64,000 nucleotides of DNA from Sclerodactyla briareus (Eukaryota > Echinodermata > Holothuroidea > Dendrochirotida > Sclerodactylidae): contig JAODTK010005774.1 of assembly GCA_026419785.1 (NCBI GenBank), positions 100,063 through 164,062 on the forward strand, in the 5' to 3' direction. Below are positions 2,528-50,885 of this stretch, piece by piece. Positions within the stretch are counted from its first letter, which is position 1. Every line of letters starts with the position of its first letter. A model generated the notes under the pieces. It was not told where the DNA came from and made no database searches. It saw nothing but the letters and a program-made list of their open reading frames with translations. Both the position numbers and the translations under genes were made by a program.

Positions 2528-3414
2528 TATATCCCCACTTTGGGGATATTATGGTTTTGGCTTCGCCGTCTCCGCCGCCGCCGCGTCCGCGTCCGCGTCC
2601 GCGTCCGCCGCCGCGTTCTTGTTAGCGCAATAACTCTCCAACACTTTGTCCGTTTGAGCCGAAACTTGGCACACATGTCCGCCTTAGTGAAATCTGAGTT
2701 CGAAAGTGGGCGTCGCCACATTAGCGGGGTCCGCTAATTTGCATAATTTCCACGATTGGAAGATTTTCCCGTTAGCGCAATAACTCTTTAACGCTTCATC
2801 CGATGGATCTGAAACTTGGTACACTTGTCCGCCCTAGTGAAATCTCGGAGGAGTTCGGAAGTGGGCATCGCTGCAATGCTTGGGGGCCGCTAATTTGCAT
2901 AATTTTCGCGAAATTTTCAAGTTAGTCGGATTGAACGAACTTGGTGGGTAGGGATTATAACTGATCCCGAAAAATGTGGAGGTCATTTCAAGGTCATCAA
3001 AGGTCAAATTTGTGAAGTTTATGCGATTTTCCAACTTTGTCAGATTTGAACGAAACTGGTGGGAACGAACTATAGTTGAATCCGAAAAATGTGGAGGTCA
3101 TTTCAAGGTCATCGGAGGTCAAACTTGCAAAATTTATGCGATTTTCCAAACTTGTCAGATTTGAACGAAACTTGGCGGATGGGGCTACATTTGTTCCCCA
3201 CAAGTTAGAAGTCATTTCAAAGCCATCATGTGTCAAATTCGCATAATTCATGTGCCTATCAACACCCATGGATTACAACAAACTTGGGGATAAGTTGGTC
3301 TGGTGTTTTTCTGACCAAAATGGGGGTCTTTATGGGGTGTTAGATACTTCCTCCCAATGATTGCTCAAAAGTGGGGATATACACGGGGCGGTTTACCCGC
3401 CTACACATGTCTAG
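2528..3414 (+). mobile_element. Helentron-like non-autonomous element, copy H1
   Basis: The 5' end carries TATATCCCCACTTT (2,528-2,541), and its reverse complement AAAGTGGGGATATA lies at 3,368-3,381. This is the subterminal inverted repeat layout of Helentrons. A GGCGG/CCGCC hairpin (3,387-3,401) follows, and the element ends in CTAG (3,411-3,414) before T. The inside has a CCG/GCGTCC-rich tract (2,565-2,615), two copies of a roughly 140-bp module starting GTTAGCGCAATAACTCT, and three copies of a roughly 117-bp module with GAGGTCATTTCAAGGTCA. No Rep or helicase is present. Five related copies lie elsewhere in the window. The exact 5' boundary is uncertain by a few bases. Confidence 0.75.
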
Positions 3415-3420
3415 TTACTT

Positions 3421-4086
3421 CTCTTGATGTTCTCGAAATCCGGGAATTCTGATTCCCCTCATCTAGCACGTGTATATATAAGGAAAGTCAGGCTCACTCC
3501 AACAGCTCTGTAATTGGATATTATGGATTCTGGCGGGCCTCACCCGCAGCGATTTCAGCGAGGAACGATAAAATGTAGGTAACCGAGTAAAGCAGCGCCG
3601 TCGAAAGATTGGAACGATTTGTAACAGCTAACGATGGGAAAATGGAGCAATTGTCAATATGTGCGAAAAATGGTCAGTGAGACATCGATAATATGTATTG
3701 ATTAATTCTACTTTCGGAATATTGTATTGTGACTGATATATGTAGCTATTTACCACGCCGGTGAAATGTCACTGGCGCTAAAAGGTGGTGGCATCATGTT
3801 GATGTAAAGTCATATTCGACTTCACTAGTAAAATTAATCATTGAAATAGCAAAATGTAAACGGATAATATTCAAAGTTTTCGGAGCACACAGTTGTAACG
3901 TCAGAACGGATTGGATTTGCCCTGTTTGTAGTGACGGTTCCCACTGTGCTCTTGGTCAAAGGAACGAAGTTATTAGAGTCTATTCGATAATTGCGGATGC
4001 GACATCGGCATGGCACTGGTACTATCGAATTCACGCTGGAACAGATATATAGGAAAAGTGTCCGGATCTGTTACGCGTTTGTTGAG
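3421..4086. other. no recognisable feature
   Basis: The stretch is AT-rich single-copy-looking sequence with no open frame or repeat I can support. Confidence 0.4.
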
Positions 4087-5477
4087 ATTCCACCCAATTA
4101 TAATAGAATGAGCGCTGAGTGGGTGCAATTGTCAATGTATACGAACGTGGCCCAGAGAGATTGTAATGGAATGAGCGCTGAGTAGGTTACAATTATCAAT
4201 GTATACCAACGTGGCTCAGAGAGATTGTATAGAATGAGCGCTGAGTAGGTACAATTATCAAATGAATGTGTACCAACGTGCATGGCCCAGAGAGATTGTA
4301 ATAGAATGAGCGCTGAGAAGGTGCAATTATCAATGTGTACCAACGTGGCTCAAAGAGATTGTAATAGAATGAGCACTGAGTAGGTACAATTGTCAATGTA
4401 TACCAACGTGCATGGCCCTGAGAGATTGTAATAGAATGAGCGCTGAGTAGGTGCGATTATCAATGTACACCAACGTGGCCCAGAGAAATTGTAATAGAAT
4501 GAGCGCTGAGTAGGTACAATTATCATGTATACCAACGTGGCCCGGAGGGATTGTAATAGAATGAGCGCTGAGTAGGCAAATTATCAATGTGTACCAACGT
4601 GCATGGCCCAGAGAGATTGTAATAGAATGAGCGCTGAGTAGGTACAATTATCATTGTGTACCAACGTGACCCAGAGAGATTGTAATAGCATGAGCGCTGA
4701 GTAGGTACAATTATCAATGTGTACCAACGTGCATGCCCAGAGAGATTGTAATAGAATGAACGCTGGGTAGGTACAATTATCAATGTGTACCAACGTGCAT
4801 GGCCTAGAGAGATTGTAATAGAAAGAGCGCTGAGTAGGTACAATTATCAATGTATACCAACGTGCATGGCCCAGAGAGATTGTAATAGCATGAGCGCTGA
4901 GTAGGTACAATTATCAATGTGTACCAACGTGCATGGCCCAGAGAGATTGTGATAGAATGAGCGCTGAGTGGTACAATTATCAATGTGTACCAACGTGCAT
5001 GGCCCAGAGAGATTGTAATAGCATGAGCGCTGAGTAGGTGCAATTATCAATGTATACCAACGTGCATGCCCAGAGAGATTGTAATGGAATGAGCGCTGAG
5101 TAGGTTACAATTATCAATGTATAACCAACGTGCATGGCCCAGAGAGATTGTAATAGAAAGAGCGCTGAGTAGGTACAATTATCAATGTATACCACGTGCA
5201 TGGCCCAGAGGATTGTAATAGAATGAACGCTGGGTAGGTACAATTATCAATGTATGCCAACGTGCATGGCCCAGAGAGATTGTAATAGAATGAGCGCTGA
5301 GTTGGTACAATTATCAATGTATACCAACGTGCATGGCCCTGAGAGATTGTAATAGCATGAGCGCTGAGTAGGTACAATTATCAATGTATGCCAACGTGCA
5401 TGGCCCAGAGAGATTGTGATAGAATGAGCGCTGAGTTGGTACAATTATCAATGTATACCAACGTGCATGGCCCAGAA
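4087..5477. repeat. 67-bp minisatellite, about 21 units
   Basis: The core unit contains GAATGAGCGCTGAGTAGG, then a CAATTATCAATGT(G/A)TACCAACGTG segment and GGCCCAGAGAGATTGTAATA. Units are mostly 66-68 bp; in the first part some lack the GCAT after ACGTG and are about 62-63 bp. The longer form is dominant in the right part. Counting the GCGCTGAG anchor gives about 21 copies. The last unit degrades near 5,477. The many minus-strand ORFs of 60-108 codons are a by-product of a period that is not a multiple of three. Confidence 0.95.
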
Positions 5478-6565
5478 GGATTGTGTGAACACTCTCCAGA
5501 AAAGCAAACACGTAGCCTACATGACCTGCTAACATGTCCACTTCATTACAATCTGTATTAATCTTCGCAAACCTATGATTACAGGTTCATATACACTGCA
5601 ACCCGCATTCGCAATCATGAAATACTAGCTTAACCCCTTTACAGATACTATTGCGCTTGCCCAGAGAGAATCCAGTATACATAAACATCATGAGTTATTG
5701 AAAAATTGCCCGATATTAGTTGGTGAAACCATTTCAGAGAATCTCGTATGCTTTTTTATTTTTTAGTGAGGTTAGGTTTTGAGGAAGGATAATACATTGC
5801 TCTAGGCCTATTGTACGAGTAATCCAGACAGACTGTGCGACGGGTGATATCCTAACTTATGTGCCTATTTAATATCAATAATTCTATATGTAAACTAGCG
5901 TTTCTCAGAAATTGGTGGAGCCGGGTTTCTGTGGGTGGATTAGGCTTCCTTGCCCGTTGAAAATAAATGTTTTTCGGGAGTTGTAGAAGTACATTTTCCA
6001 CGAAGTATCTATAGCCACGCATTCTGATTATAGCCATGTTTTCTATTTATAGATTTATAGTCAGGTATTCTATTGGAACTTCTCCATCATTGCATGGAAA
6101 AGGTTGTATTTTAAGGTGGGAGTTGGATAACGTTGTTGATGTTCCCCGAATTGCTCTGACGACATAAAAGGTAGGATTTCGTGAGGGGCGGGGTGCGATA
6201 TGAATGTAAATATCGGACTTAAAGTCGATAGAGAAGCGCATGCAGTCAAATGAACTGTATGAGAATGCTGGAAGATCATAGGAACGCCTACTAATTTTAT
6301 ACGGACGTAGGTATGCCTCACGAGGAGATATGCCAAAGAATTTCATTTGCAGTGATGCAGCATCAGTGGTACACGTTGTAATTTAGCCTTCGTAGTTTTT
6401 GCTCGTTCCATTAATTCTGTTTGGAATAGCAACACTCTCGCCGCTCATGCTCACCTTAAAAAACTCGACAGTCTCGTTCACTCAACTCCATTCTCGCGAG
6501 GGGAAGTGGCTGTGCGTGCAAAACTGCATCCTGTCGGATAGAGACGTTGAATGCCGTTGACGTTG
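5478..6565. other. no recognisable feature
   Basis: A few overlapping minus-strand open frames at 6,047-6,346 show no domain or splice signals. I see no repeat shared with the rest of the window. Confidence 0.4.
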
Positions 6566-10418: not shown

Positions 10419-13400
10419 TTAGACGGAACAAAAATCTTTAGAAGGCTGTTCCACCATTAAATAAACTCTCTGCGAGAAGAAATGTCCGAATGTCCAATCT
10501 GCAGAGTTACCACTAACTTGAGGCCATGACCCCTTTGGTGGTAGGAAGTAGAAATAGTGACAGAAGGCATCGAAACCATGAACAATTTTAAGAAACTGAA
10601 TCAAATCACCTGAAATTTATTTTACGTCTGCAGCCCATCAGATGTACATCGAGACGCACGTATCTTAATTCGAGAGTAGATCCCTAAGACAGTGAATTAA
10701 TCAAGTGGCCCTCCGCTGAACGTTTTCAATACCTGCTTGTCTTTCGGAGAATGAGGATCCATAAAAACTGGTAAATGCAGAATATCCAGGGGAGGTCTCA
10801 CCACTGCTTAAACAGGCTACAACATATCTTTATCAAGGAAACTGCTAATGACGTCTAAATCAAACCAAGATCCAATTTTCTTCCTCGCACAGCTTCGGCA
10901 CACTGCTTAGACAGTTTCAAGGAGAATAAAAAGGAATTCAAGATTTTTTGCATTCACCTGCTTGAAATATTTGTAATTTACCTTGGAAGACGTATTGCGA
11001 TTTGGAACCTTGAACTATCGGCATTGAAAAACGTTTGCAAATCGAAAAAAATTTGGAGTCACATCAAGATCCTTTGGACACTTGCCAACATCTTCGTTCA
11101 GAAGCAACCTAGATCCCAATACAACTTGCGTATGTCGCAAACTTGGAATGCACCGAATCTTCGGGATCGTCAATATACGCAGAAAAAATAGGGACCCAAC
11201 AACAGATTATTGGAACACCACGTGACACTAGTGACCTTTCGCCAAGGAGACCCGAACGACCATCGATGACAACTCGTTGTTCCGTGTTGAAGAGACACTG
11301 ACGAACCATCAAGGAACAGTCCATCAATGCCTCAAAAGCTTTTTGGAAGTCTAGAAAAAAAAAAATATAAACAGCACTGCCGGTGTCAACTCTACTAGTC
11401 GGCATCTTCCATAAATTAAGAGATTAGTCAAACACGAACGATTTCTGAAAACCATGCTGAGAACCCAGAATCAGAACTAGACTCTGAACAAATCGACAAT
11501 ATGAACCTGAATAAGGATTCGAATTTCGAACAAGTACCTTGCCAAACAACATAGTAAGACTCCTGCTTGCAATACAATGAAAGAGACCGCTTGATTCCTT
11601 GAAAATAGCGAGAAACGTTGTCTCCCTCCAATCCTCAGGAAAACAACACCTTGACAAGGTTTCATTGAAATAATAGCTAATAGCAGGCGCGTATATACAT
11701 AAAAATTCCAGGGGGGGGGGGATCATTTTGGACCGACAAGAATTTCGTGGACCGCCCCCATTCTCGTTATCGGGATTGTACCAGAAGCGGCGCCATGCGG
11801 TCGTGGAGGGTGCCCTGGGCCTCGACTAGTGGCAAATCGTTTCCGTTATGATCTTGTGATGAGACTGATCTGGGGGAGGGGGGGGGGGAGGATTGTTGAT
11901 AGGGCCTGATCTGGGCAGGCCCTCCCCCTTTGGAAAACTTTTTGCAAACCTGACACCCCTCAAAGCAAAATGGTGCTATCCTAGTCGATAGTCTAGCATG
12001 AATTAACCTATTGAAAATATTCAGTTTTCTGCCAACCGTATTTTCCCAACTACGTAACTGCGTGTTAAGATAATTTTGGTTTCAAAACAGGATCTGTGAA
12101 CCTAGCTACATGAATACCTGTCACTCATATATGGGTACATATTCAAGAGATTACTATATTGCCTGTACGCTGGATATGAGTATGACACATGATTTTCCGA
12201 AGCGCTTGACCCTAAATTCACATAATGATGATGGTAATGGAATTCTGAGGAGAATTGGCAGTCACATCATGGTCTTGCATAGCCCCGAGCTGATACCGAT
12301 ATTTGTAATGATTGTCCCGATGGGCGGGGGTCCTGAAACTTGGCACACATGTTCTTCATAGTCAAATCAATTTCCTGCACTAGTCGGACGTGCTCAACGC
12401 CCCTATTTTTTTTCCACTTTTTCTGTCCCGAACGTTTCTTCTCCGCTTGCTCCCCGACGGGCCGCCCGCCCCTGTGGTTGAAACGAGTTTCATTCATTTT
12501 TCAATTAACTCTTGTTTTTTAAACACCATGAATTCCAGAATGCACATCGCAATAGCCCCTATTTTTCGACGGGAACAGAAAATAAAACTAGGTCCTTGCT
12601 ATGCTCAATTAATTTGTCACCTGACTCGAGCGGAGACCGACTTTTGCCGCCGAGAGAGCCCGACTGCCTGATTTCACAGGGGGTTGTCACCCCCCCCCCC
12701 CCCCCCCCTCCGTATTTTCGCCCCTGCTAATCGAACAGACAACAGTCGGCAAAAGATTTCAATAAGAAGGGTTTAACTTCGTCCGGACCAGGAGCTTGAC
12801 CACAAGGTCGCAGGAAGTTTACCGACGAGAATAGTTATTAGAAACGCTACCTTCCTGACTATCGCTGGTTGTATTCAGATTCGGACGCTAACAGTGGACC
12901 AAATGCTGTCCTTGACTTTCTGCTCCCCTAACATAAGAGAAAACGCACGAGGATTATTCTTCATATTAGAGGTAATCTGTCTTTCAAAATCTAGCTTATA
13001 GCACCAGAAACTATACAATGGACTAGCCTCTGCTGAAGTTTGAAACATCTAAATCAGACTAAGAACCAGTAAAATGGTAAAGTCGCCAAAAATGTCTCCT
13101 ACGTTTAACGGCCAGAAAAAACTCTCTTTTCATCCAAGGAAGGCCCTTTTGTTCTTAGTGCGATGCTTTTTCAAGGAACATAAACTTTCTTATCTCGATA
13201 ACTTTATCAGTGAAACCCTTCTATGAGTCAACAACATTCAAACTTTAGTATACTATCAGGCACCCAGAAGTGCCATCTAAATCGACCCTCGAGAAACAAT
13301 AGGAACGAGCTCAACGCTCTGTGGATGTGACAGAGCAAGACACATCGAAAGCGATAATATCGTGATCACTGTACCAAGCCACCTAAACCTATACATTCCT

Positions 13401-21780: not shown

Positions 21781-22837
21781 GCTCTTTTACAACTCAATAG
21801 TACTTCGGGAGAATGGACAAATGACTGGTGCATCATGACCTTGGATGAATGTGAATTGGATTCAATGTTGATGAACTTCAATGTCTTTATTACCATAACC
21901 GAGTTATTAGAGGCCATTCCCAGATCACCTGTTACAATGTAACTAGAACACTCAGGAAGTTCCGTTTACTTCCATCTGGGGTTGTACAGTCCACCAATTT
22001 TCATGTACGGTCTGCAAAAACGAGAGTGTTTATATGGGGGGTGGGGGGGGATATAGCACACTTCCGGATTTTGCATCCGGTATGACGTAATTGGTGTGGT
22101 GGGATGATGCACACTTTCGGTTTTTATGGTTTGGCGGGCGTATTCCCGGTATGGCCGGAAACTTATTCCGGTTTTTACGGTTTGTTCCGACGACTATATT
22201 AAGATTCAAACTGTCCTATTCTGGGTTTTTTTTGTTTCTGGATGGTTCGTTTTGCGTCTCCTGTATTGGGTGTCTCTGTCCCGGGATTGATTATTTTAAT
22301 TGGTGTCTGTATTGAGAGAAAAGGGATGTCCGGGCGTATTAATTTACTCTATTGTTCTTACGTAATCGGTTAGTGCCTGTATATTGGAGATATTGTGGGG
22401 AGGAAGTATCTGTGGTGTGGTCAGTGTTATCCCAGGATGCAGAAGTACGCATGCTGGTCGCGAATTCTTTACGTGGAGGGTGTGCCGCATCGAGTGAGGA
22501 AGGACGAAAGAGCGGCTGCGCGGAAAAGGAAAGACGCTTAGTGAAACGAGAGGCCCCAGGGAAAAAAAAAATCTAGTTTGAGAAGACAGTCAAGGATCAA
22601 CAGAAGACGATTGCAAACTTTAGCAAGCTGATTGACGAACCTGGATGAGAAGGATGACAGAGAAAAGGCACTGCAGTCACGGGGTTCGAGACCTCTAGGT
22701 GGAAGTAGTCTCATTGCGAGGGGTTCAGGGCAAATAGCGGGGAAGAATACAAAGACATGCTGCTAGCGGGGTTTGCTCTTTTCAGTCGAAAGGCTCATGC
22801 TCTTACAATTCATCAGAGTGCTAATTAGCCATTTATT

Positions 22838-23966
22838 GCTCAAATAGTTGAATATTCGATATCATGAAGGGGGGAATGCAGGGTTTCTTCAATTCTTGGA
22901 TTTCCACTGTTTTCCGAGCAAATTGCTCACTGTTCTATTTACTCAAGACACACGGGGGCAATGCTCAGGGCTCCTCTGATCACCCGAATGCTGAAATGCT
23001 CAAATACTTAAAATTGATATCGAAGTGGGATTGAGGTATTCTATAAATTATTGGGTTTCCACTGTTTTCCGAGCAAATTGCTACATGTTCTATGTTACGC
23101 AAAATACTCGGGCAACCTGCTCATTTGCTCTTGATCACCGAAATGTCGAAAATTGCTCAAAATAACTTAAATATTTGATACGAAGTGGGGATGCCTGAGG
23201 TTATATTCCTATAAATTCTGGGTTTGCACTGTTTTCGAGCAAAATTGGTCACGGCTCTTTTACTCAAGATACTCGGAGCAACTGCTCATTGCTCCTCGGA
23301 TTACTCGAAATTGATCTTCAAAACGTAAATATGTGATTATCGAAGGGGGGAGGATGAAGTATTCCTATATGCTTGGCTTTCACTGTTTTCCGGGCAAATT
23401 GCTCACTGTTCCATTTTACTCAAAATACTCGGAGCAAATGCTATTGCTCATCTGATCACCCGAAATGCTCGAAATTGTCAAATACTAAATTTTGATATCC
23501 GATAGTGGGGGGATTGCCTGAGGTATTCTATAAATTCTTGGGTTGCACTGTTATCGAGCCAAATCCTCACGGCTCTTTTTAATCAGATACTCGGAGCAAA
23601 CGTCATTGCTCCTCTGATTACTAGAAATTGCTCAATACTTAACTATTGGATATCGCAGTGGGGATGCAGGTATTCCTTTAAATTATGGGTTCCCAAGGTT
23701 TCCGGGCAAATTGCTCACTGTTCTATTTACTCAAAATCTCGGAGCCAGCAGCAACTGCTCATGCTCCTATTGAATCACCCGAAAATGTTCGGAAATTGCT
23801 CAAATACTGAATATTGCTATCGAAGGGGGGATTCTGAGGGTATTTCTATAAATTCTTGGGTTTGCACTGTTTTCCAGCAAATTGCAATCACGGCTCTCTT
23901 ACTAAAGATGACCGGAGCAATGCTCAGAGCTTCAGGAGCATCGCTAAGAACTGTTTATAAAAATCA
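22838..23966. repeat. roughly 160-bp satellite array inside the TIR element
   Basis: Seven units share TTGGGTTT(C/G)CACTGTTTTCCGAGC-like anchors, AAATTGCTCACTGTTCTATTTACTC, CTCGGAGCAA.TGCTCATTGCTCC and ATATCGAAGTGGGGAT. Units differ mainly by small indels. A single unit of the same sequence sits at the inner end of the right arm (about 25,445-25,560, inverted). The array therefore looks like an expansion of one unit on the left side only. It ends at a 21-C tract (23,967-23,987). Confidence 0.85.
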
Positions 23967-24229
23967 CCCCCCCCCCCCCCCCCCCCCACAATGAGAGCAC
24001 TCATTTGGTTTAGTGAGCAACCGACGTGCCAAAATGCGCTAATCTGACTCTATGCGAGAAGAAAAGAGACTTTTTAATCGTATAATCTTCGACGCAATAT
24101 CGAAAACAATGCATGGACTGAACCCAGAAATGGGTTTCGGAAGTAGAGTCCATGAGTTAGTACAGTAGTAATGTCCCCATTCCCACAAGTTCCAATGTTG
24201 ATACCACAGCAGTCAGGATTCTGCCACCA

Positions 24230-25938: not shown

Positions 25939-26331
25939 CCTGGGATAACACTGACCACACCCCGAAATTCACTTGCCCACCATATTCTCCATATACAGGC
26001 ACTAATGATTACGTAAGAAAACAAAAGAGTTAAATTAATTACCGCCCCGATATCCCTTTTCTTTCAATACAGAACAATTAAAAAATCAATCCGGAAACAG
26101 GCCACCAATAACACGGAGGACAATACCGACCACCATCCAGAACACAAAACCGCGAAGTTTGACTTTAATAATCGTCGACCAAACCGTAAAAACCTGGATC
26201 AGTCCGGCATACCGGGAAATTCGCGCCAAACAAATAATAACCGGAAGTGTGCAGATCCCTCCCACACCAATTACGTATAACGGATGCAAAAATACGGAAG
26301 TGTGTAGATCCCCCCCCCCCCCCCCCCCTAT

Positions 26332-29237: not shown

Positions 29238-29943
29238 AACCATAATATCTCCACATGGGTATTTATGGTTCTGTCCTTCGTTGACGCCGCCACCGTCCGC
29301 CGTTCTTGCCGCCGCCGCCGGAAAAGTTTCGTGTTAACGCGGTAACTGTCCAACCCGACCCATTGTCGGATTGACTTGAAACTTTGCACACATGTTTATC
29401 GGATAAAAAATATCGGAGGAATTCAAAAGTTGGGCGTCGCCGCACCACCACAAGGGCCAGCTCAGATTTTTGACGGAACTTTCTTATATGGCTGATTTCC
29501 GCGTGTCGGAACATAGCGATCTTTTTGGGACCAACTTTCGTTTTCGCCCCCATGGTACCCCACCCGGCAGGCATTTCGGATTGTTTTTAGGAAAGTTTTT
29601 TTTTTTTTTTTGCTTATCGCTGATTTGCATGTTTTTGGAACATCGAGATCGTTTTGGGATCAACTTTCGACCACTTTGGTGGACACCCTTTTTTCACTTT
29701 TACATCTTTTTATCCCAAGCTTGTTAACTTCACTCCGATTTCAAGTCGGCACCTACTTGAACTAATCGCCTGTTACAAACTTTGAGACCCTTAGGCCTAT
29801 AGCAACCTTTTGACAAAACTTTCCGCACACCACAACTTAGGCCTTGGATACTCTTTTTTATATCAATTGAGATTGACCCCTCCCCCCTGATGCCAAAGGT
29901 GAGTATTTACACTTTGGGCGGTTTTCCGCTGGCGGATGACTAG
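29238..29943 (+). mobile_element. Helentron-like non-autonomous element, copy H5
   Basis: The start has ATATCTCCACATGGGTATTTATGG followed by a GCCGCC-rich tract. A module like that of H1 follows (TTAACGCGGTAACTGTCC, GAAACTTTGCACACATG, GTTGGGCGTCGCCGCA). The 3' end has GGCGGTTTTCCGCTGGCGG and CTAG (29,940-29,943) before T. The hairpin stem is shorter than in H1. No AGGTCA array is seen in this copy. Confidence 0.65.
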
Positions 29944-34860: not shown

Positions 34861-35809
34861 CTGTGAAGAGAAAATACAAAATGATCCATAATGGGGGGAT
34901 GGAAATGAACAACACCATCACGAACTGTCGTTCTTGTTGGGACTGTCTGAAAACACGAACAACTTACTAAAAAGAACCTCCGGATGAATATATATATCTT
35001 AAACTATCTTTTTATTCGCGAGGTTATCTCAGCCGACGAAAACGGAGGCCACCAAAGCTCAAAAAAAAACGGGGAAAAGGAACGAGGACCTCCCGGTCTA
35101 TCCTAAGGGGAAAAATGAGTCCCAAAGGGAATAACACCATCAAAAGGGCGAGTACTATAACTGAAACGAGAGTAAATAAAAGTCTTGAATCCAAGAGCCT
35201 AACGGTAATATGGTACCTGACAACACATTAAGTCCCCGTACCCACACTGTGGTAGGCAAAGCATGGCTAGGTCTTTACACTAGGCTAGAGCCTAGCCATG
35301 TGAAAACAAGAAGACGCCTTGCGGTTGCCATATCGCGGAAAGAAAAGTTTCGAAAGGACATCTTCCTTCGAGAACGTGATAGTCATAGGTTAGCTGTCAA
35401 AGAGCACGCACAAAATCTCCAGAAAATCAGGGGAGAAGGAAATGTTAAAATGGAGGGATTCTAAGATCAAATGCCGACGCCAGATCTTGGAGCAAGATGC
35501 TTGTCACAAATAACTGGTCGAATTGCCAGAGGCAACTTTTGTTTTCGGCCGGTTAAGAGGTAGGGAAATACGACTAAGGCATATGGTGTACGGGTAATGA
35601 CGACCTGCAGTGAGTGAAATTATGGTTCTTGGTCGAATCACTCAAATCAATGTACATCGTTCCGTTACAGAAGTGTTGTATTCAGTGGCACTCCATAATC
35701 ATGGGTGTAAAATACGTATATACTAGCCTTTTTAACTCATTTATCGTAGTAGATAGTTAGTCTAGATGGTTGTTATAATGCGGTCATATATAGAAAGAGG
35801 TATGGAAAT
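34861..35809. other. no supported gene; one perfect hairpin
   Basis: CATGGCTAGG (35,262-35,271) and CCTAGCCATG (35,291-35,300) form a perfect 10-bp stem with a 19-nt loop. Nothing else is supported. Confidence 0.45.
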
Positions 35810-36620
35810 GTTCTCCTTTGGACGATGACGGCCATTTTTCCAGCTGGGTAATGGCCGCTATCCCGTTTGCATGACCATAATATAATTGGCAAATTAGCAG
35901 TAGAAAAAGCATGCCCCTCTCCCTGTTAGAACTCCTAAATATAAGTTCAGCTACGTAGATTATGCCAAAATATAAAAAAATGGGAATAGGATCAGATAAA
36001 AATATGGAAATACCGTTATTTAGCGATCAAACTGACCGCCATTTGCCCGGAAGCAATTGGATAACCATTACGGTTATACCTGTTAATAAAACTGTAGCGA
36101 TCCGTCGTGACCGTATCCGCTGGTATCGTTTTCAACAAGTATTTCCGTAATTGCTAACATTTACTCTTATCCCTGGATAATCTCTGATCCCGATATCTTC
36201 CTGATTAGTTCTACAAAGTACTAAGATCAGACCCCCGTCCAAGGTTAGCATTAACTGAAGAATCGTCCCCAATAGATCAGGATGATTCGCTAACTTTGCG
36301 ACGGGAACGCGGCCATTTTTTAATTCATGATGGCCGCCATGTAGTCTGGTTGATGGTCAATATTACCGTTAGATATCCACCAGTAACTGACAACATTATT
36401 ATAGTCAATAATACCAGATTTATGTACCATGGAACTGGGCAGTTATAATCACTTTCAAATGAGAGATGGCGGCCATTTTGTATTTCCAAAATGGCCGCCA
36501 AAGCATGCAGAAAAATGAAGCTCTCAACTTTTGATTCAGCGTATTCGAAATAGCCGGGAAATGTTATAAAATCAATTTGGGCAAGCCTATCTCGAAAAAG
36601 ACAGAAGCATCCCTACTAAA
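35810..36620 (-). repeat. dispersed repeat family with ATGGCGGCCAT hairpins, copy 2
   Basis: This is the longer copy of the family at 30,850-31,330, on the other strand. At 36,467-36,500 TGGCGGCCATTTTG and CAAAATGGCCGCCA make a perfect 14-bp stem with a 6-nt loop. Further GGCCATTTT or ATGGCCGC words occur near 35,831, 35,855, 36,310 and 36,330, one or two per roughly 170-bp module. No coding sequence is seen. Confidence 0.7.
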
Positions 36621-36966: not shown

Positions 36967-37616
36967 CTAGACAGTGCAGGCGGGGTCGTAAACTGCCGAC
37001 AAGTATATACCCGCAGGAATGGCTTTTTAAACCTCGTTTAGAAGAAAGCACTGTAATAATACATCCATAGACCCCTGTGACTTGGAAATGCCCATACCTG
37101 TTGTTTCAGGACCATCCGGTAGTCCACATCCTCCAAGTTTTTTTTAAAATGTGACGAAGCGTTAGACAAATCACATGGATTCTGATCGGAATGACCTTCA
37201 TAATGTTTAGGAATTAACAACCGTCCACATCCACCGAGGTTTCGTTCAACTTCGACCAAAGTTGAGAAAAAATCGCCGAAAAATAATACAAATTTGACTC
37301 TAGTGACTTGACATCCACCTCAGGTTTTTGGGGACAAACTTTTGTCCTCACCCACCAGTCGTGTAAATCGGACTCTAACCTGCAGTTGTTCTGTGAAACT
37401 TCCAAAATAGAGGGCGGCAGAGCGGCAGACATGCAGCGATGTCCCCTTTCGAACTGTCCGAGATTTTTAGGGTTGACATATGTAACAAGTTTCAGATCAT
37501 TCGCCATAGATGGTTAGACTCGGAGTGTCCGGCGGAGGCGACGGCGGCGGAGATGGCAGCAGCTCCCCCAACTCCATGCATGCTATCCCCAGAATACTGA
37601 AGTGGTGCGGGGATTA
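36967..37616 (-). mobile_element. Helentron-like non-autonomous element, copy H2
   Basis: Read on the minus strand, the 5' end has TATTAATCCCCGCACCACTT, then a GCCGCCGTCGCCTCCGCC tract. The 3' end has GCGGGTATATACTTGTC, a GGCAGTTTACGACCCCGCC hairpin and CTAG (36,967-36,970) before T. The length of about 650 bp and the internal order match H4, so the two form a short subfamily. Confidence 0.7.
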
Positions 37617-39458
37617 ATACTCAATAATTATCCACTGTTTGTTCTGAATTGCGGGGTCATATTGTTTAGTAGGACAAATAACGTAATTCGAATAGAATAT
37701 GCACAAACATTATCAAGACGGTGAATGGGATTCTTGAAAATTGACACTCCCCTTATCTCGGAAAAACAGCCAGTAAGTGAGACATATCCAAAATTTGGAC
37801 CGTGGATATGGAAAACCTTAAATAACAACTAGGGCCCCAGATTCCTCACCAATATTACGAAATAATACTGCAAATTTCATGTCTGATAGTATCATAGTAA
37901 TAACCAGAATTGCAGTCCATTCATATCGCGATTTTGAAATGAATGTCGACGTGGAAGAAAAAGGAATGTAACATTAAGACCAAAGAGTGAATTTGAAGAG
38001 GTGGAATAGGTTACGTTGTCATTGTGTATAGGCCTATACACCTTTGTTTCAGTAGTTACCCATTACAAGAGGTTCAGGACTTCTGCGAGGTCAGATGGAA
38101 ATTGAACTTAGATCTAGAAACAATAGAGGGATAATCTATCTCGATATTGCCAAGCTACGATTTGAGACTTCTATTGGACCTCAGCATAACTTGGACTTAG
38201 ACCCAAAATCAACCAGCTACATATGGGATACCTATATACCAAGTATGGTCCAACACCTTGTTGTTCACTAGGTCTGTTATCAAGTGTTGAGTTCTCATGT
38301 TTATGAGGGCATGAGACACATACATACACAAACATCACACATGTGCACCATCTTTAGAATCCTAATTTGAAATGTTGCGAGTAGATAGCAAAAACGAAGA
38401 GGAAGAACGTTGTTGCTGTACGAAAGATTTTTTCTTCCCCTGTCTATAAATTGCTCCTCCGGATTTCTACCTTGGAACAAAACCCCACTTGGAATCAAAG
38501 CTATTGCACCGTAACTGGGAAACTTTGGGGGGACTTTAGGGGTAACCTTGGCCAGGTACAAACCATTCGTTTTGGATTGTCGCCCTCCCTTCCCATAGTG
38601 CTGCCTTATTATTAGAGGTGGTTTGTGCATGTTCATATTCAAGTCAAACCATTAAATTACTGTGATAACTGCACGATTCGTAATTCTCTTTTCATTATTT
38701 TGGTGAAAAATTAGCAGAATTGAGGACTATTCCCCCTAATTTTATATATTTCGAAATGCACCCTAAATATATGTCTCTAGTTAGGGCAACTAAAACTGTA
38801 AAAAATATTCGGGCGTCCCCATCTGATATTCCCACTTCTGAATGTCAAGTCCACGTTAATCACACCGACTTACTTTACCATTTGTCACGTGAAAATGGTC
38901 TTTCTAATAACTGGTGACGTCACATTCCGTAAAATATTGCGAAACATGATAATTACATTGTTTCGCGTTAAATAATTGATAGTCTGCTTACGACCCTAAG
39001 CAATTAGGGATGCACAGCAATGAATTAACGTATGAATCGTAGGAATTAGCTTTCTTCTGAGTACTTTTTTCTTAATATATCCACCACATTTCGCCAGATA
39101 AATTAAATAGTGTATCCACAAAAGGCACAATACGCAATTTCGCGATCCGGAACAGTACACCTATGCCACAACTTCCATAAGATGTGACAACTTGGGGAAG
39201 ATAAGGGTCTGTTTTGTATTTTGAAGACACAATGAATATATACAAGTAGGCATTATTTCAATTACATGCTTACTCCCTTATTATTTTTGTTTAGTCGCGT
39301 TAACTTTTTATTCCCGGCGTTATAAAATAATTGTAGTGGTCCTTCAGTAAACAATGGCTTTTGCTAACTGCCAAAGTTACCCCAAATTCCGAAATTTCAT
39401 TTCATCTTTTGACCTATGACCTTGTGTGGAGGGGGCTACCATTGATTCTTAAATTAAA
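37617..39458. other. no recognisable feature
   Basis: Several short open frames (for example 38,301-38,642 minus) show no domain. I find no repeat shared with the rest of the window. Confidence 0.35.
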
Positions 39459-41525
39459 CTAGAAAAATGACGGGCGGGTAAAACCGCCAACGTGTATAGT
39501 CCCCGCATCTCTTATTCAAGACATTTGGTGAACATGAAATCGGAACGATTTCCGTAGAAAAGAATATATTTATAGACTTGTGAACGACAGCGTGTAACGG
39601 TAAAGGTGCGTCTTAAAGTAAGCACATTTATTCAATATTCACTTTAAACCACATGACCACGCCGCAGAGGTCAAATTCATTCATAGGTCAAACCAATGCA
39701 AGTCCACATTATTATCCATGGTGACCCTCCAGCCTTCGCAGATATTCAATTTCTCCGATTATAAGCCCAAAAAACATTTTTTGACCCCTAAGTGGACCTC
39801 GAATGACCTTTAATGTATGACAGTTTTATAAAATTGTTAGCTCTCCATGTGATACAATCACCCTCTAGGATCATTTTGCAATTTGATGACCACACCCAGT
39901 GCTATTGCCGAAAAGTACTAAATCAGTTTTTGACACACCTAAGTGACCTTTACTGACCTTCAATGACATGGCGGACTTTATAAAATTGTTACCTCCCATG
40001 TGAGGTAACACTCCTAGTCGCATATTGCATTCCAATGAACATGTCCGATGGTTATTGCGAAAAGGATAAAATTGAACTTGACCCCTTGTAACTACCAAGT
40101 AAGTGTCCGCTCGAAGCCGGCGGGCGTTATTTCGCCCTCCACAAAGCAACACAAAGCTCAACACATTCCAAAAATACCCAGTTCTTTTTTTTGCCCGTAC
40201 CCCTTAAATAAGCCATTTATGGGTCAGGATTCGCCCTTTAACACCACATTTACCACCACACCCTACAGAGGTTCAAATTCACAGGTCAGAGGTCACACAC
40301 ATGCAGTCAACAATTATATCACAATGGGGAACCATCCAGCCTTCGCAGATATCACTTCTCCGATTATAGCCAAAAAAACAGTTTGTGACCCCTAAGTGCC
40401 AAATTGACCTTTAATAATGATATGACAGTTTTTATGAGAATTGTTACTCTCCTGTGATACAATCCACTCCTAGGAGCATTTCAATTCTGATGAACACACC
40501 CAGTGCTATTGCCGAGAATACTAAAATCAGTTTGTGACCCTAAGTTGACCTTTAGTGACTTCAATGACATGGCGGCTTTGTTTAATGAAAATTGTTACAC
40601 TCCATGTGATCATTCACTCCTCGAAGCTATTGGGCATTTCCCATGAAACTGTCCAATGTTATTTGCGAAACAAGTATTAAACTCAAACTCATCATTTTTG
40701 ACTGATCATGGATAACTAAGATGCAATTATACCCAACAAAGTTACCCCCATGATCTGATGCTATTGAATCAATTTACAGACTGGTTAGTAAGTCCTATTT
40801 CCCAAAGTTTCTGTCAAATCCTGAAAGTTGAGAAAAGATTACATTAATTATTCTACTTATGCAACGAATAATGGGAAATTAAAACACTAATGACCTTCAT
40901 TGATTTCAAAGCAATTGATAGAATTTATCGGGACTGTTAGAAGTCCTACTCACCAAGTTGTCGTGAGAATCCAACAAAGTTGATAAATTTTGGCCTAATT
41001 GCTAATTGGGCCAACTATTTGGCAAATTAGTCAGCAAGATGACCCCATGACCTCAGCCACATTTAGAAAAATTCATCGGCCACTGATAGTTGCCCTTTCC
41101 CAAGTTTTTCATAAACCAATGAAGTTTTGATATCACATACATTCTGCTATAATAGGCTACTGGCCAAGAATGCACATGACCTCGGATGACCTTGAAATTG
41201 TCGCCCTTTTTTCGGCTCCAACCCCTACCCACACCACCACGTTTCGTGTAAATCGCGAACGAACTTGAAAATTTTGTGCGAAACACCTCAAAATAGCGGG
41301 CACGTCAAATATACGTATAGCCCATTTTGTCGACTTATCCGAGATTTTACTCCTCATACGGAATTCTGTACCGACTTTTGGGTCAATCGGATAAACTGTT
41401 AAAGAATGAGAACGCTATAAACGCCTAAAGTTTCCGGCGGCGGCGGCGCGGCGGCGGAGACGCGGCTTGCACACCGCCAAAACCATAAAATCCACGAACA
41501 CCATCATAGTGTTGCGGGATATAAT
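39459..41525 (-). mobile_element. Helentron-like non-autonomous element, copy H3 (long form)
   Basis: Read on the minus strand, it starts AAATTATATCCCGCAACACT, then TTTTATGGTTTTGGC and a GCCGCC tract with GGAAACTTTAGGCG. It ends with GCGGGGACTATACACG, a GGCGGTTTTACCCGCC hairpin and CTAG (39,459-39,462) before T. It is collinear with H6 along about 2.1 kb. Both contain two copies of a long module starting TTTTCGCAATAACATTGGAC. AGGTCA half-sites in DR4 spacing occur, for example TGACCT at 39,944 and 39,954 on the plus strand. No Rep/helicase ORF is present. Confidence 0.8.
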
Positions 41526-41828: not shown

Positions 41829-42490
41829 CTAGACTGTGCATGGTGGGTAACTGCCTGACATGTCCGTCTATATCTCTGCAAAATGGCCTTTGATGGACCT
41901 CGTTTAGAGGAAGCACGTTTGAAATTATGTTTTTTGCCCTCCCGGTGACTTTGAATTACCTTATCTGTTGTGTAATCCATATTCTCCAAGTTTTTTTTAT
42001 AAATTTTAAAATGAAAGAAAACATTTTTTGACCTCTAGTGACCAATGATGACCTCTGACCTTCAATTTGACCTCTGGTGATCCTGAAAATAACCGTCATG
42101 TTTTCAGAACAAACTTTTGTCCCCATCCACCCCATTTGTAATAATTGGCACCAACTTTTTTATTTTGCCAAAAATCTCACAAATTTTACCTCCAGAGACC
42201 TTGGAAGTAAACGTCCTGATCTTCGGCCAACTTTTTTGTCCCCACCCACCAATTTCGTGTGAATCGTGCGACTCGTGCGAATTAGATGCAGCACAACATG
42301 CAGTCATGCCATTTTCGACCTCCTTCGAGTATTCACTAGGGCGACAATGTGTACCAAGTGTTAAGCTCAATCTATGAAGGGTTAAATGTTTTTAGTGCGC
42401 CTAATGTCTCTGGCGGCGGCGGAGACGGCCAACTACAAAAACCCCCCAAACCATAATAATCCCGAACTTAAAAGTGTTGCGGGGATATTA
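41829..42490 (-). mobile_element. Helentron-like non-autonomous element, copy H4
   Basis: Read on the minus strand, it starts TATTAATATCCCCGCAACAC, then ATTATTATGGTTTGG and a GCCGCC tract. It ends with GAGATATAGACGG, a weak GGCAGTTACCCACC hairpin and CTAG (41,829-41,832) before T. It is sister to H2. A DR1 pair of TGACCT half-sites lies at 42,049-42,061. It sits only about 300 bp from H3, on the same strand. Confidence 0.7.
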
Positions 42491-42784
42491 ATACTATGTC
42501 ATTTGACGCGACCACATGGTTGTAGGTGAAGAACAGGTTTCACATTTGGGGCGAGATAAAGAAAGTGGTACTCCCTCAACGCCTCGTGTCATGCTTCCAC
42601 CCGCAGTGGTCCTCTGAAGCCCTTCGGTGGATCATACACAGGCGTATAAGTAAGCATTAAGTAACCGTCTACTAGCGTTGTTCTGAGGAGACTATAGGCC
42701 TAATCAGGGGCGGCGATCTGTGTTCAACATTTGGGGGGCGGACATATGAGGCTGGCACAGTCTAAGCGCAGCGCCACCATGGTT

Positions 42785-44730: not shown

Positions 44731-46373
44731 GGAGCAAAAAAAAAGAAGAAGTAAGCACGTTCTCATACCTGTAAAAGGATGACTCTCTGCGCAACTGTCG
44801 TTGCAGTTAAAATACATTATTTCCCCAACTATAAGGGAGAAATGTCCAACATCTTTCCTATTATTGCGAGAAAACAAATCCACTAGCAGTAAACATGTTT
44901 TTTTGCCGAGGAAACACGAAGTTTTTTTAATTGATGTTCTAGCAATAATTACAAGAAACGAAACAATACTGCCTCTTCTGTGCACAACAAATTCATATGA
45001 AGGTTCATTCACCCAGGACAAAAATATAACGTCTGGGTGTTCCCTCCAGTTTCTCAACGCAAGCGCGTTTCAACAAACCTCATCCAATTTGAACGAAAAA
45101 CTGCTCCTCACTGACTGTATCCAAACGCATTGTACATCACTGATCACATAATTTTCCTGTTCTCGATTGAAATTGAATACCAACTGAATCGTATCTATAA
45201 TGAGATTTGCCGATTGTAACATGGGTATTGCAACTTCAGATGCACAAGGGCCACACAATATCTGAGACCGCTACTAGTCAATGCAAACGATTTCATCGCT
45301 CGCAATATCAATGTCCCTCGCTCGCAAAAATATGCACGCAGGACTCGCGCTGCTTTGTAACCGCTACAGTGGTGCACCTTGTGTACGCACGTACGGTAAT
45401 GGGGCGACATTGTGGTGTCGACTTGACAGTTTGTCACTATTCTGACAAAGCCACATGGCCTACTGGGTCCCGACCATAACGAGAATATGAGATAACACTT
45501 ACTTTTCATGACATTGAGGCAGTGACGGGCCGCACGGGGGGGGGTGGGGGGGGGGGGGGGGCCCAAAACGGAACGCAAACCGGGGGGGGCAAAACGAGAC
45601 GAAGCAACGCGATACGAACGCGACGAAAAAAATCGTGTGGGGGGGAGTGCCCAAATCAGATTTTAGCCTAAAAATATTTCTTGAATGAACTGCATTTGAG
45701 CACTGTTTGGTTTTTGTAGGGGGTGTGGGTGGGTGATATTCCAACGGTGGTCCCGTCGGCAAAAGATATTCTGTGGTTCAGTAATCGGTTACCAGTTGAA
45801 AAGATCTGGCAAAACCACAATAAATATCTCAAGAAAGACAATAAATTTGTGCCAAATTCGCATCGAATACGATGAAAGGTGAACATTTTTCGCGCTTCGC
45901 GCGTGTATACTGTGCGTGGAATTTTGCCCGTCCGCTTTCCCATCCCCACACCCCTCTATGGGAGCTTTCTACCATCATTGGCCCGCTAATCTAATAATAA
46001 TCCTGTGAGGTAAAATACTGAATTATACACAACATTCCATTGTCTTGCAAACCTACAGTCAACTCTTTTATTACTGAACCTTTAGCCTCCGATCCGTTTC
46101 CTTCCTCTATCCTCTACCACGCGCGTATTGAACTGAAGTTGCTCGGCTATCAAATTGCTTTTCGTTTTCGATTTTCAACGTATGTTTTGTTTTTTCTCTC
46201 AGGTCTGCTACCTGCGTCATAATCGTGGTTGGGACAGTTAAGAGCTAAAGATAAGCTAAATGTCCCAACTTTGCTGGTGAGATCCTGTTTCCAGATGTGC
46301 CGGGAAAACCCATAAAAAATTCCGCGCGCACTGGTGCCTGAACATTAGTATGGAGTACATTATTGAATATTCT
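44731..46373. repeat. tandem segmental duplication, unit 1
   Basis: The unit starts GGAGCAAAAAAAAAGAAG and continues through ATCACATAATTTTC, CGCTCGCAATATCAATGTC and a G-tract region (45,537-45,560). A hairpin CGCGCTTCGCGCG follows at 45,891-45,903, and the unit closes with GTACATTATTGAATATTCT. The next unit repeats all of this in order. The G-tract part opens with GGCAGTGACGGGCCGCACGG, which looks like the end of a hAT-type element, so a mobile element may lie inside the duplicated unit. Confidence 0.85.
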
Positions 46374-48085
46374 GGAGCAAAAAAAAAGAAGAAGAAGCAC
46401 GATCATCATTCCTGTAAAAAGGAGTAATCTCTGCGCAAAACGCGGTTGCAGCGGTTAAAACAAATACATTATTGCCCAAACTATAGGGAGAATTTCCAAC
46501 ATCGTTACCTATTCTTGGAGAAACAAATCCACTAGCCATCACATTTTTTTTTTTCCTAGGAAACCTCAGTTTTAAATTGAGGTCTACAAGTAATTCAAAC
46601 ACGAAACAATACTGGCCTCTTGCTGTCAACACAATTCATATTGTAAGGTTACAATTCACCCGGACAAATGTAACGCTCCTGGGTTTTCCCCCTCAGTTCC
46701 TCAACGCAGGCGTTTCGACAAACAACATCTCATCCTAATTTTGAACGAAAAAAAAAACTGCTCCATATGAAATGTATCCAAACTCATTGTACAATCACTG
46801 ATCACATAATTTTCTCGATTGAATTGAATACCAACTGAATGTTATCTATAATTAATTTGCCGATTGTGAACATGGCCATGCACTTCAGACTCGCCAAGCA
46901 CACAATATCTGAGACCGACTCCTAGTATTCAATACGATTTCATCACATCGCTCGCAATATCAATGTCATCGCTCGCAAAAATTATGCACGCAGCCTTCTG
47001 CGCTGCTTTTTAACACGCTTAACAGTGTGCAACCGTGTTGTTACGCACAGTACGGTATGGGGTGAAGTGTGGATTCGAACTTGACAGTTGTTCACTATTG
47101 GTACAGCAGACTTGTAGCCTACCTTACTCGACCATACGAGAATATGAGATAGCACTTCTTTCATTTCCTGAAATTGATGCGTGAACGCCGCAACGGGGGG
47201 GGGGGGGGCACACGTGGGCAACGACACGGACGTCGCGACGAACACACGACGCGCAAAAACCGGGACCACGGCACGAAAAAAGACGGGGGGGGGACGGTGC
47301 CCCCAATCAGATTTTGAGGCCGAAAATTTTCTGATGAAAATGCATTTGAGCAATGTTTGTATGTAGGGGGTGGGGTAGGTAGTTCCAACCAACGGTGGTC
47401 CGTCGGCCAAGATTCTGGTGGGGTCAGTACTCTGTTACCAAAGTTGTTGAAAAAGATCTGGCAAAACACAAAAAAACAATACATATCATCAGAAAGACAG
47501 TACTTTGTGCCAAACTCGCATCGAATGCGATGAAAGGTGAAATTTTCCGCGCTTCGCGCGGTGTATACTGTAGCTACCCCCCGCCTTGACAACAGGCCTA
47601 TACTCATCCACGCTGCCCCCCTTACAAGCGGAATTTTTTTGTCCGTCCGCTTTCTCCCCTCCCCCACACTCTATGGAGCTTTCTACCCTACTCATTGGCC
47701 CCCTAACAATAACTATCTTGAGGCAAAATACTGAAAATTCTACAACAACATTCTTCATTGACTTGAAAACTACGTCACCTCTTGATTACTGGAACCCTTT
47801 AGCCTCCTCCGATCCGTTCGCATTCCTTCCTCTACTACCACGGCCGCGTATTGGAATGCAGTTGCTTCGCTAATCACATTGCTTCGATTTTCAACGTATG
47901 GTTTTTCCTCCCGGTAACTGCTACTGACGGTTCATATCGTGGTTGGGAAGTAGAGCTAAAGATAGCTAAATGTCCCAAATTTGCTGGGGAGATCCTGTTG
48001 TTCCAATGTGCCGGGAAAACCCAGAAAATTCCGCCGCACGGTGCCTGAACCTTCGTAGAGTACAAATTATTGAATAGTCTGGCCA
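46374..48085. repeat. tandem segmental duplication, unit 2
   Basis: This directly follows unit 1 and is collinear with it over about 1.65 kb. Differences are mostly one- to few-base indels plus substitutions. It has one extra stretch near 47,577-47,625. The 168-codon minus-strand frame at 47,161-47,667 lies across the G-tract and is not matched by an intact frame in unit 1, so I do not call a gene. Confidence 0.85.
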
Positions 48086-48149
48086 AAAATTCGGGGTCCA
48101 AAAAGCTGATAAGAAATCGGAGGTCTGACAAAATGTTATATTTTCATAT

Positions 48150-48392
48150 TTGATTACAGATTTGTGATCCCAAAATGCCTAGATTTAAAGCTTGGTATAA
48201 ACAGCCTAAAACGCTCGGGATAGGTCATTTCCGGCTATCTGGGGCTTGAGCAACCAAAAATTTCCTTGTGCGATCCCCCCAGCGCCAAACCAATGGTGGC
48301 GCTCCGCTAAGATGTTTTCTTGTGCCGCTAAATGTCTGTGCCCCCATTGTGCCCCCCAGTAATTAAACGTCTGGTGACGATGCCACTGATAA
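48150..48392 (+). repeat. dispersed repeat family C, copy 2
   Basis: This is a homologue of 21,555-21,780: CAGCCTAAAACGCT, CATTTCCGGCTATCTG, CCAATGGTGGCGCTCCGC and GGTGACGATGCCACTG in the same order. Confidence 0.6.
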
Positions 48393-48735
48393 GGAGGAAG
48401 ATTTTGTCAACGTGGTTTAGTGTGCTAGTATTCCCGTCAATCATATGTCAATCGCCCGAGTCCTTTGATATGAATCCGTCATTCCTGACTAATTTCAAGT
48501 TGTGTAATTGAAGGGCATTCCATGTCCGACAATAGTCAAGTCAGCTGATTTCAATTGTAGCCAACTCGGAGAGGGCCATACTTAACGCTTAATAGCCTAG
48601 ATGACATTTGAATTGTATTTCCAGCTTAATTCCCAATTCAAGCGGCAAAATAAACAAGGAGTACATGTATATTATATCGAAATCGTGTCTAACTGTTACC
48701 CTTCATCTTTTGGTTAACTACTGTCATTCCATAAT
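48393..48735. other. no recognisable feature
   Basis: I see no gene or repeat here. Confidence 0.35.
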
Positions 48736-50885
48736 ATAATCCCCCCGCACAACTGTAAGTGTTCCGGGTATATTATGGATTGGCCGTGGTGCCCGCCGTC
48801 TCCGTCCCTCCGTCCCGCGGCCGCCGCCGCCGGCTCCGCCCGCGCCGGAAACTTTAGGCGATTAGCGCTCTCATTCTTTAACACTTATCCGATTGCCCCA
48901 CTTGGTACACTGTCAGTATGAGAAGATCTCGGGAAGTTCGAAAATGTTCTATATCGTATATTTGTTTGCCCTCTATTTTGCATGTTTTTTCGCAAAATTT
49001 CAAATTCGTGCGATTTACACGAACCGGGTGTTGTTGGTAGTTGTTGGAGTCCGAAAACACAGGCGACCATTTCAAGGTCTCCGAGGAGGTCAAGTTTGAA
49101 TTTATTTGGCCAGTAGCCTAATTATAGCATAATTTATGTGATATTTCACACCTTCCCATTGGCTTTCAGGGAAACTTGGTGAATAGGGCCACTATCAGTG
49201 CCGAATGAAATTTTCCCTAATGTGGCCGAGATCGATCTACTGGAGGTCATCTTGCATGACTAATTTGTCATAATAGTTGGCCCAATTAGCAATTAGCAAA
49301 TTTATCAACGTTGTTGGATTCTCACAAAACCTTGTGAGTAGAACCTTCGACATTCCCATAAATTTTCAATTGCGTTGAAATCACGGAAGGTCATTATGTG
49401 TGGTTAATTTACATATTAGTTAGCATAGTTAGAATAATCAATGCAATTATCTTCTCAACTTTTATGATTTTGACGGAAACTTTTGTGAATAGGACCTACT
49501 AACCAGTCCCTATTAAATTTATTCAATACATCAAGATCACTGATGTGGTAAATTTTTGGGACTAATTTGCATTTAGGTAGTCCTTACATCGAAATGATGA
49601 GTGATACTTTTTTTTCGCATAACATTGGACATGTTCATTGGAATGTGCAATATGCTTTAGGAGTGGATGCATCACATGGATGTAACAATTTTCATAAAAA
49701 CCGCCATGTCTTGAAGGTCATTAAAGGTCACTTAGGGTCAAAAACTGCTTTTAGTAGTTTTTTTGGCATAGCACTGGGTGGTTCATCAGAATGCAAAATG
49801 CTCCTAGGATGTATGTACACATGGAGAGTACCAATTCCATAAAACTCGCCATATCATTACAGGTCCTTCGGGGTCACTTAGGGTCAAAAACTGTTTTTGG
49901 CTATAATCGAAGAATTGAATATCGTCGAGGCTGCTGGTTTCACCATTGTGATATAAAAAATGTTGACCTGCATGTTGTGACCTCTGACCTGAATTTGACT
50001 CTCTGGCGGTGTCAGTGGTTTAAAGGTTCGAATCTTGAATAAATTTTCGTTATTTAAGGAGTTACGTAACGGGGGGCCAAAAAGAAAAAAAAAGAGTAGA
50101 GAACTTGGTTATTTTGATATGTTATAGAGCTTTGGTGCTTTATGGAGGGAAACAACTTCCCGCTTGTTCGCTCGGACACTTCACTTTGGGTTCAAGGGGT
50201 CAAAGTTCACTTGTATTACCTTTTCGCAATAACATTGGACATGTTCATTGGATGCAATTTTGTGCTTCTAAGAGTGATCATCACCCACATGAGGTTTGAA
50301 CAATTTCCATAAAAACCACCATGTCACGGAAGGTCATTAAAGGTCACTTAGTGGGCAAAAACTGATTTTAGTACTTTTTCGCAAAGCACTGGGTGTGTTT
50401 CATCAGAATGCAAAATGCCTCCTAGAAGTGGATGTATCACATGGAGAGTAACAAGATTCAGTAAAAAACTGTCATATCCATGAAAGGTCATGCGGGGTCA
50501 CTTAGGGGCAAAACTGTTTTTGGCTTATAAAATCGGAGAAATGCATACTGCTAAGGCTGGATGGTTCACCATTGTGATTAATCATTGTTACCTCAATTGT
50601 GTGACCGCTGACACGTGAATTGAACCTCTGGTCGGTGGGTCATTGGTTTAAGGTCGAATCTTGCATAAATGTGCTTTTTAAGGACGCACCTTGTCCGGGG
50701 GCTGTAGGGGTGCCTCAAAATTAACAAGTGCATTATGGAATGAACCCATTTACCTGTCTACGTTGTCGCTTCACAAGTCTTTGTCTTCTTTCCAAGAATA
50801 CTGTCCGGTTTCATGTTCACGCAAATTTCTTGATAAGAAGAGCGGGAGATATAGCTCTGGCGGTTTACCCGCCCGACTTTTCTAG
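48736..50885 (+). mobile_element. Helentron-like non-autonomous element, copy H6 (long form)
   Basis: It starts ATAATATAATCCCCCCGCAC, then GTATATTATGGATTGGC and a CCGCCG tract with GGAAACTTTAGGCG. The 3' end has GCGGGAGATATAGC, a GGCGG/CCGCC hairpin (50,859-50,873) and CTAG (50,882-50,885) before T. It is collinear with H3, which lies in reverse. AGGTCA direct repeats with a 4-nt gap lie at 49,715-49,730 and 50,331-50,346, at equivalent places of its two long internal modules. No Rep/helicase ORF is present. Confidence 0.8.

Follow-up and report, generated by a model that had tools for sequence, protein, structure and literature searches.

In a 64,000-nt stretch of Sclerodactyla briareus DNA (contig JAODTK010005774.1, positions 100,063 to 164,062; called the window below), an initial annotation had picked out six elements, H1 to H6, and placed them with the Helentrons and their non-autonomous kin, which raises the question of whether they form one family of rolling-circle transposons and of which kind. 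H1–H6 are very probably old, mutated, non-autonomous transposons of the Helitron2/Helentron type (HINE, DINE-1-like) belonging to a family that numbers several hundred copies or more, and the Helentron-type assignment is supported. Members of the family have a 5' hairpin, the arm of which recurs as GGGGATATA some 34 nt from the 3' end, and a GC palindrome that usually stands 9 nt before CTAG. Its anatomy comprises a 5' repeat with an inverted copy, a GC-rich microsatellite, central repeats (several copies), the 3' repeat and the palindrome.

The best-preserved copy in the window is H1 (2527–3414, plus strand, 888 nt), which is preceded by the target bases TAA (2524–2526) and followed by TT (3415–3416) after CTAG. 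Its 5' repeat with inverted copy forms a hairpin at 2528–2549, central tandem repeats with a period of 115 (2.3 copies) occupy 2913–3172, and the 3' end at 3373–3414 carries the repeat GGGGATATA (3373–3381), the palindrome GGCGGTTTACCCGCC (3387–3401) and the terminal CTAG, all on the plus strand. The 115-bp repeat part also matches H2 (36967–37617, minus strand, about 651 nt) and H4 (41829–42491, minus strand, about 663 nt), both decayed elements, the latter with a clear 5' end. H3 (39459–41524, minus strand) and H6 (48736–50885, plus strand, 5' end imprecise by 1–3 nt) represent a 2.1-kb class, are 77% identical across about 2 kb, and each contain two copies of a stretch of about 0.5 kb, separated by about 0.6 kb (76% alike in H3, 79% in H6). 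H5 (29201–29943, plus strand) is a decayed element with weak profile scores. CTAG followed by TT is the terminus of all six elements, each read on its own strand, which agrees with the T noted after CTAG by the initial annotation, and the GCC-rich tract reported after the 5' end was seen by eye in all six and exceeded the threshold in 31 of 43 fetched copies. Other parts of that description had to be narrowed. The proposed 5' motif TATATCCCC is exact only in H1, and as a 9-mer with one mismatch it is not enriched in the window over chance (18 against 14.8 expected); the conserved start is TTATATCC, 1–2 nt to the left of the starts first annotated. Likewise, the GGCGG/CCGCC hairpin before CTAG is perfect in H1, H3 and H6, which account for the three occurrences of the perfect hairpin-CTAG pattern in the 64-kb window (0.01 expected), and is decayed in H2, H4 and H5, where the palindromes are broken.

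Comparison of the elements with each other gave local matches in 13 of the 15 pairs, with 60–78% identity; no local match was detected for H2–H5 and H4–H5. The last 60 nt reached pair scores of up to 46 (shuffled maximum 22), whereas the flanks behaved as unrelated sequence, the best of 15 pairs scoring 23 beyond CTAGTT on the right (shuffled maximum 28) and 21 on the left (shuffled maximum 29). This bears out both the claim of six related elements at or near the annotated places and the expectation that their flanks would not align beyond the terminus. When end profiles built from copies outside the window were run on the window, both ends were matched in H1 (E 2.8e-12 at the 5' end, 1.4e-14 at the 3' end), H2 (E 1.2e-4, 1.6e-6), H3 (E 2.3e-11, 5.9e-11) and H6 (E 2.5e-11, 6.4e-9). 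The 5' end of H4 was also matched (E 4.2e-11), its 3' end being missed at E<=0.5, and the 3' end of H5 gave a weak match (E 0.03). In H5 the hairpin is present twice within 29201–29275, the two copies inverted relative to each other: an outer one at 29,201 and an inner one at about 29,240. Of the two candidate starts that result, the profile favours the inner (E 0.05) over the outer (E 0.48) by a small margin. The start first annotated belongs to the inner copy, towards which the profile leans slightly, and the outer copy remains a candidate as well.

The search was then extended to the window's own genome (319 Mb, 3,171 contigs, with the window as the right end of contig C3017), with reversed patterns in the same genome as controls. 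The 15-nt palindrome GGCGGTTTACCCGCC occurred 674 times, 432 times with CTAG 5–14 nt later and 374 times followed by CTAGTT, and the 5' hairpin TTATATCCCC-N6-22-GGGGATATTATGG had 192 exact occurrences; each control gave 0. Subsequently, 72 distinct copies were read, which had been chosen for the palindrome and were taken from the start of the contig order, not at random (8 loci from the palindrome search, 24 of the 30 from the palindrome+CTAG search, the remaining 6 being duplicates of loci already included, and 40 further). In 70 of them CTAG lay no more than 24 nt from the palindrome, with a spacing of 9 nt in 49 of the 70, and the bases following CTAG were T at the first position in 68 of 70, at the second in 60 and at the third in 30, a weak T excess. 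GGGGATATA with at most one mismatch stood upstream of the palindrome in 51 of the 72 copies (0.3 expected), its distance to the 3' end having a median of 34 nt (50 copies measured), and a 5' profile made from eight copies matched 46 of the 72 at E<=1. The size classes of 0.65, 0.7–0.9 and 2.1 kb suggested for the window fall within a broader range genome-wide, 369–2,466 nt among the 42 copies whose full length was measured. Four of these 42 exceed 1.8 kb, and three of the four have the H3/H6 tail by our rule; in the fourth, L085, one missing base sets the tail apart from that type. The same rule separates five tail types and leaves 13 copies unassigned, the tails of H1, H2/H4, H3/H6 and H5 belonging to different types.

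The ends and the target were determined from flanking bases and from sites without an insertion. Of the exact 5' hairpins in the genome, 152 of 192 have TNA directly before them, with about 8% expected, and the 3' flank starts with TT. Among 26 copies matched by the profile from its first base at E<1e-3, position -3 was T in 19, position -1 was A in 23 and TNA was complete in 18, against 8.4% expected from base composition. Within the window TNA is clean only in H1; GTA precedes the start of H2 and of H4, CAT precedes the outer start of H5, and the cases of H3 and H6 are ambiguous. TNATT is the preferred target, with a preference that reaches to the TNA before TT. Due to the shared Ts, the insertion point may be TNA^TT, TNAT^T or TNATT^; an A^T insertion fits one of these parses, and the TT dinucleotide is present at the site. 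Three occupied sites (L065, L081 and L086) could be paired with insertion-free copies, and no target duplication was found. For L065 these were L002 and L064, with no gap at the junction, and two host-repeat copies in the window with a one-base difference there, at 27670–27846 (plus strand) and about 26,520–26,867 (minus strand). L030 and L056 served for L081 and showed no junction gap, with only about 20 nt aligned on the right, and a host-repeat copy in the window at 35795–36406 (minus strand) is the empty site for L086, where the alignment has small gaps to the left of the junction. With the joined L065 flanks as query, all 40 scored matches out of 1,075 candidates spanned the junction at 85–91% identity, and ten matches that were aligned had neither gap nor duplication at the junction (consensus GTGCTGTAATTTTGACTG). 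Excising exactly TTATATCC...CTAG from L065 gives back the length of the empty site. The element boundaries are TTATATCC...CTAG, and insertion proceeds without target duplication, so that the empty-site check came out as the initial annotation had anticipated, at three other family copies; for H1–H6 themselves no empty sites were obtained. The repeat that hosts L065 is itself very abundant, with 1,075 candidate genome places for a 119-nt piece.

The genome was also searched for Rep-helicase sequences. PF14214 matched at C2413:103,101-103,575, split over two frames (frameshift or intron), and at C2926:127,103-127,219 with one stop, and the PF05970 helicase matched at one genome place with two stops. 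The C2413 fragment contains RIEFQQRGSPHAH, with RGSPHAH, and a serine between G and P in Rep is described as a Helentron sign in the available part of PMC4067079; the canonical Helraiser (PDB 7lcc) has RGLPHAH at the aligned place, in a weak match (E 0.04). As a query against the genome, the Rep fragment returned only itself. At L012, two family 3' ends were located upstream of the Rep piece, at distances of about 8 and 4.6 kb (profile E 2.5e-8, 0.09). Judged from this fragment, a Helentron-type Rep has been present in the genome, and we infer that such a Rep moved the family. Beside the C2926 fragment, about 5 kb away, a 220-aa open frame (L014:3132-3791) matches Parvo_NS1 at E 2.4e-14 and is probably virus-derived.

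The 5' hairpin was further examined by folding and by paired changes. As DNA, the hairpin of copy L066 folds at -13.2 kcal/mol (z -7.45); in the window the z-scores were -4.5 for H1, -2.4 for H3, -2.2 for H4 and -0.4 for H2 and H6, in which it is lost, and the doubled hairpin copy of H5 gave -4.0 over 80 nt. At the 3' end, where the hairpin is recognised by its sequence pattern and not by folding energy, H6 stands out with z -2.45. For covariation, 27 distinct 41-nt 5' hairpins were taken from 100 of the 192 places, with exact outer arms and one length. In the free inner stem, paired changes were seen in 15 cells (shuffled 5.4), 81.0% of the cells were paired (shuffled 76.4%) and covariation was 0.255 (shuffled 0.159), in each case with 0 of 500 shuffles as high. 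Because the hairpin copies are related, the paired changes are support and not proof.

Several results weigh against the assignment of H1–H6 to non-autonomous Helitron2/Helentron-type elements. Folded as DNA, the 3' ends of five of the six window copies were no better than shuffles (z -0.35 to -1.57). The numbers of double-change pairs and of pair types in the 27 hairpins stayed within the shuffles (221 of 500 and 394 of 500 as high); these are the measures least affected by relatedness, and slid versions were similar on both. An earlier paired-change count, made on 24 gapped hairpins, came out negative (80.5% paired, 81.1% shuffled). The 5' profile left 26 of the 72 copies without a 5' end, and transposition itself was not observed in the sequence data. 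Finally, no intact Rep-helicase was found in the genome by profile searches, which do not join exons, and no family ends were found within about 9 kb downstream of the Rep pieces. Since family ends lie only upstream of Rep, we do not claim an autonomous element bearing these ends, and the partner with the same ends that the initial annotation had envisaged was looked for in the genome and not found.

Three other explanations were considered. H1–H6 could be non-autonomous elements of the canonical Helitron (Helitron1) kind in which an inverted repeat simply happens to lie close to the 5' end. The CTAG terminus and the palindrome 9 nt upstream would speak for this, as would a duplication-free insertion for which A^T is one possible parse; the counts of CTAG and of its spacing correspond to the CTRR end with a hairpin about 11 nt upstream that marks Helitron1. 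However, the start TTATATCC begins with TT and not with TC, and a 5' hairpin arm copied near the 3' end is a hallmark of Helitron2. The Rep fragment, putatively linked to this family, carries the Helentron residue as well, and altogether we regard a Helitron1 origin as improbable. Far less credible still is a relation to miniature inverted-repeat cut-and-paste elements, a name sometimes given to DINE-1-like elements: the copies are short, have complementary sequences near both ends and yielded no detectable transposase, but the 3' repeat is subterminal, at the median distance given above, and the three examined sites lack a target duplication. That unrelated repeats are alike by chance in their GC-rich tracts and AT-rich ends, as the chance frequency of TATATCCCC alone in the window and the weak support for H5 might suggest, deserves next to no credence in view of hundreds of genome matches against zero for reversed patterns and of interiors that align in 13 of 15 pairs.

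Returning to a Helitron2/Helentron-type origin, a mode of movement can be sketched, the steps of which we infer from Helitron biology as described in the available parts of PMC3627910, PMC4067079 and PMC5148889. A Rep-helicase supplied in trans would nick the 5' end, and one strand would be peeled off by rolling-circle replication. The 3' palindrome and CTAG would act as the stop signal ending the round, and the 3' repeat may pair with the 5' repeat, opening the 5' hairpin and marking the end of the round, as proposed for Helitron2 (PMC3627910). The freed strand would then be joined into TNATT. The family has well-defined ends that can be counted, copies in the hundreds and naturally empty sites, so that it is usable to ask which end signals and target bases are read by a Helitron2/Helentron Rep. 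The TNATT preference, if general, would provide a link to the TNAT target of Fusarium Helitron2 and a concrete prediction on target recognition.

The window contains further repeats. A tandem array at 4097–5484 consists of about 21 copies of a 67-bp unit with 89% matches and was also called as period 200, and the region 22036–26325 holds several pairs of diverged inverted arms (73–88% complementary, the outermost pair 4.1 kb apart) and a 155-bp direct repeat within its left half, giving it the look of a palindromic or foldback element. At 44872–47676 a unit of about 1.65 kb occurs twice in direct orientation, the matched parts being 71–91% alike. Inverted arms of about 150 nt, 79–90% complementary in pieces and 0.7 kb apart, at 62578–63571 resemble a small terminal-inverted-repeat element. 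Frames on the minus strand at 11112–11825, without a Pfam match, resemble what we take to be pieces of a non-LTR reverse transcriptase. Pfam gave nothing above cut-off for 10 open reading frames of the window, scanning the window with Rfam and for tRNAs found nothing, and the exact 3' end pattern had 0 matches in viral contigs.

Oysters, flies and mites already furnish examples of this kind of rolling-circle transposon, and the one mildly unusual point is the measured five-letter TNATT target preference. The HINE anatomy has been published (PMC4067079), including Cg_HINE of the Pacific oyster (PMC7492417), and as far as the available parts of both papers go, the H family shares with HINE and DINE-1-like elements the 5' repeat with an adjacent inverted copy, the microsatellite, the central tandem repeats, the 3' repeat followed by the palindrome, a T-rich target and the lack of target duplication. 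The first of these is represented by the 192 exact hairpins (control 0), the matching 3' repeat tens of nt before the end and then the palindrome by 51 of 72 copies, and the boundaries without duplication by three sites outside the window copies. Unlike in those descriptions, the H family ends in CTAG, its target preference extends to the TNA before TT, and its microsatellite is GCC-rich, whereas several oyster elements have a GTCY-type one. The Helentron/HINE end structure of the initial annotation therefore holds for the paired subterminal repeats and the anatomy and not for CTAG, which in the available parts of the literature is reported for Helitrons and the Phytophthora proto-Helentron, not for Helentrons; for this reason the ends are hybrid, with Helentron-like paired subterminal repeats, a Helitron-like CTAG and a possible A^T insertion.

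Pacific oyster elements mixing Helitron and Helentron features have been proposed as possible intermediates; out of 751, 257 have subterminal inverted repeats, and 33% of this subset also a 5' inverted repeat (available part of PMC7992393). They resemble the H family in the CTAG end, the upstream hairpin and, on one parse of the shared Ts, A^T insertion, but start with TC and have a microsatellite in only one, in contrast to the TT start and common GC-rich tract found here. The proto-Helentron of Phytophthora infestans likewise has 5' TT, 3' CTAG and insertion without duplication, at A^T, which matches one parse of the H family's target, and its Rep bears the Helentron signature, as does the Rep fragment in this genome; according to the accessible portion of PMC4067079 it is a 14-kb coding element of typical Helitron structure, while the elements here are short and have paired subterminal repeats. 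To Helitron2, including FoHeli1/2 of Fusarium, the family is similar in its asymmetric terminal inverted repeats and in the hairpins at both the 5' and the 3' end (PMC3627910, PMC5148889, as far as available). The FoHeli target, given both as TNAT^T and as TNAT^A in PMC5148889, is close to TNATT; unlike the H family, FoHeli1/2 start with TCAG and end with ATTTT, and Chlamydomonas Helitron2 differs in its TTTT or T-rich targets in the same partial sources. The available part of PMC3630058 held no closer match, PMC5148889 was the only report of Helitron2 with a TNAT target in the searched open literature, and no priority is claimed for TNATT. Within this range of known systems it is conceivable, if somewhat short of probable, that the H family represents a structural intermediate between Helitron and Helentron as a whole successful family, and that TNATT is read base-specifically by Rep, beyond a T-rich preference.

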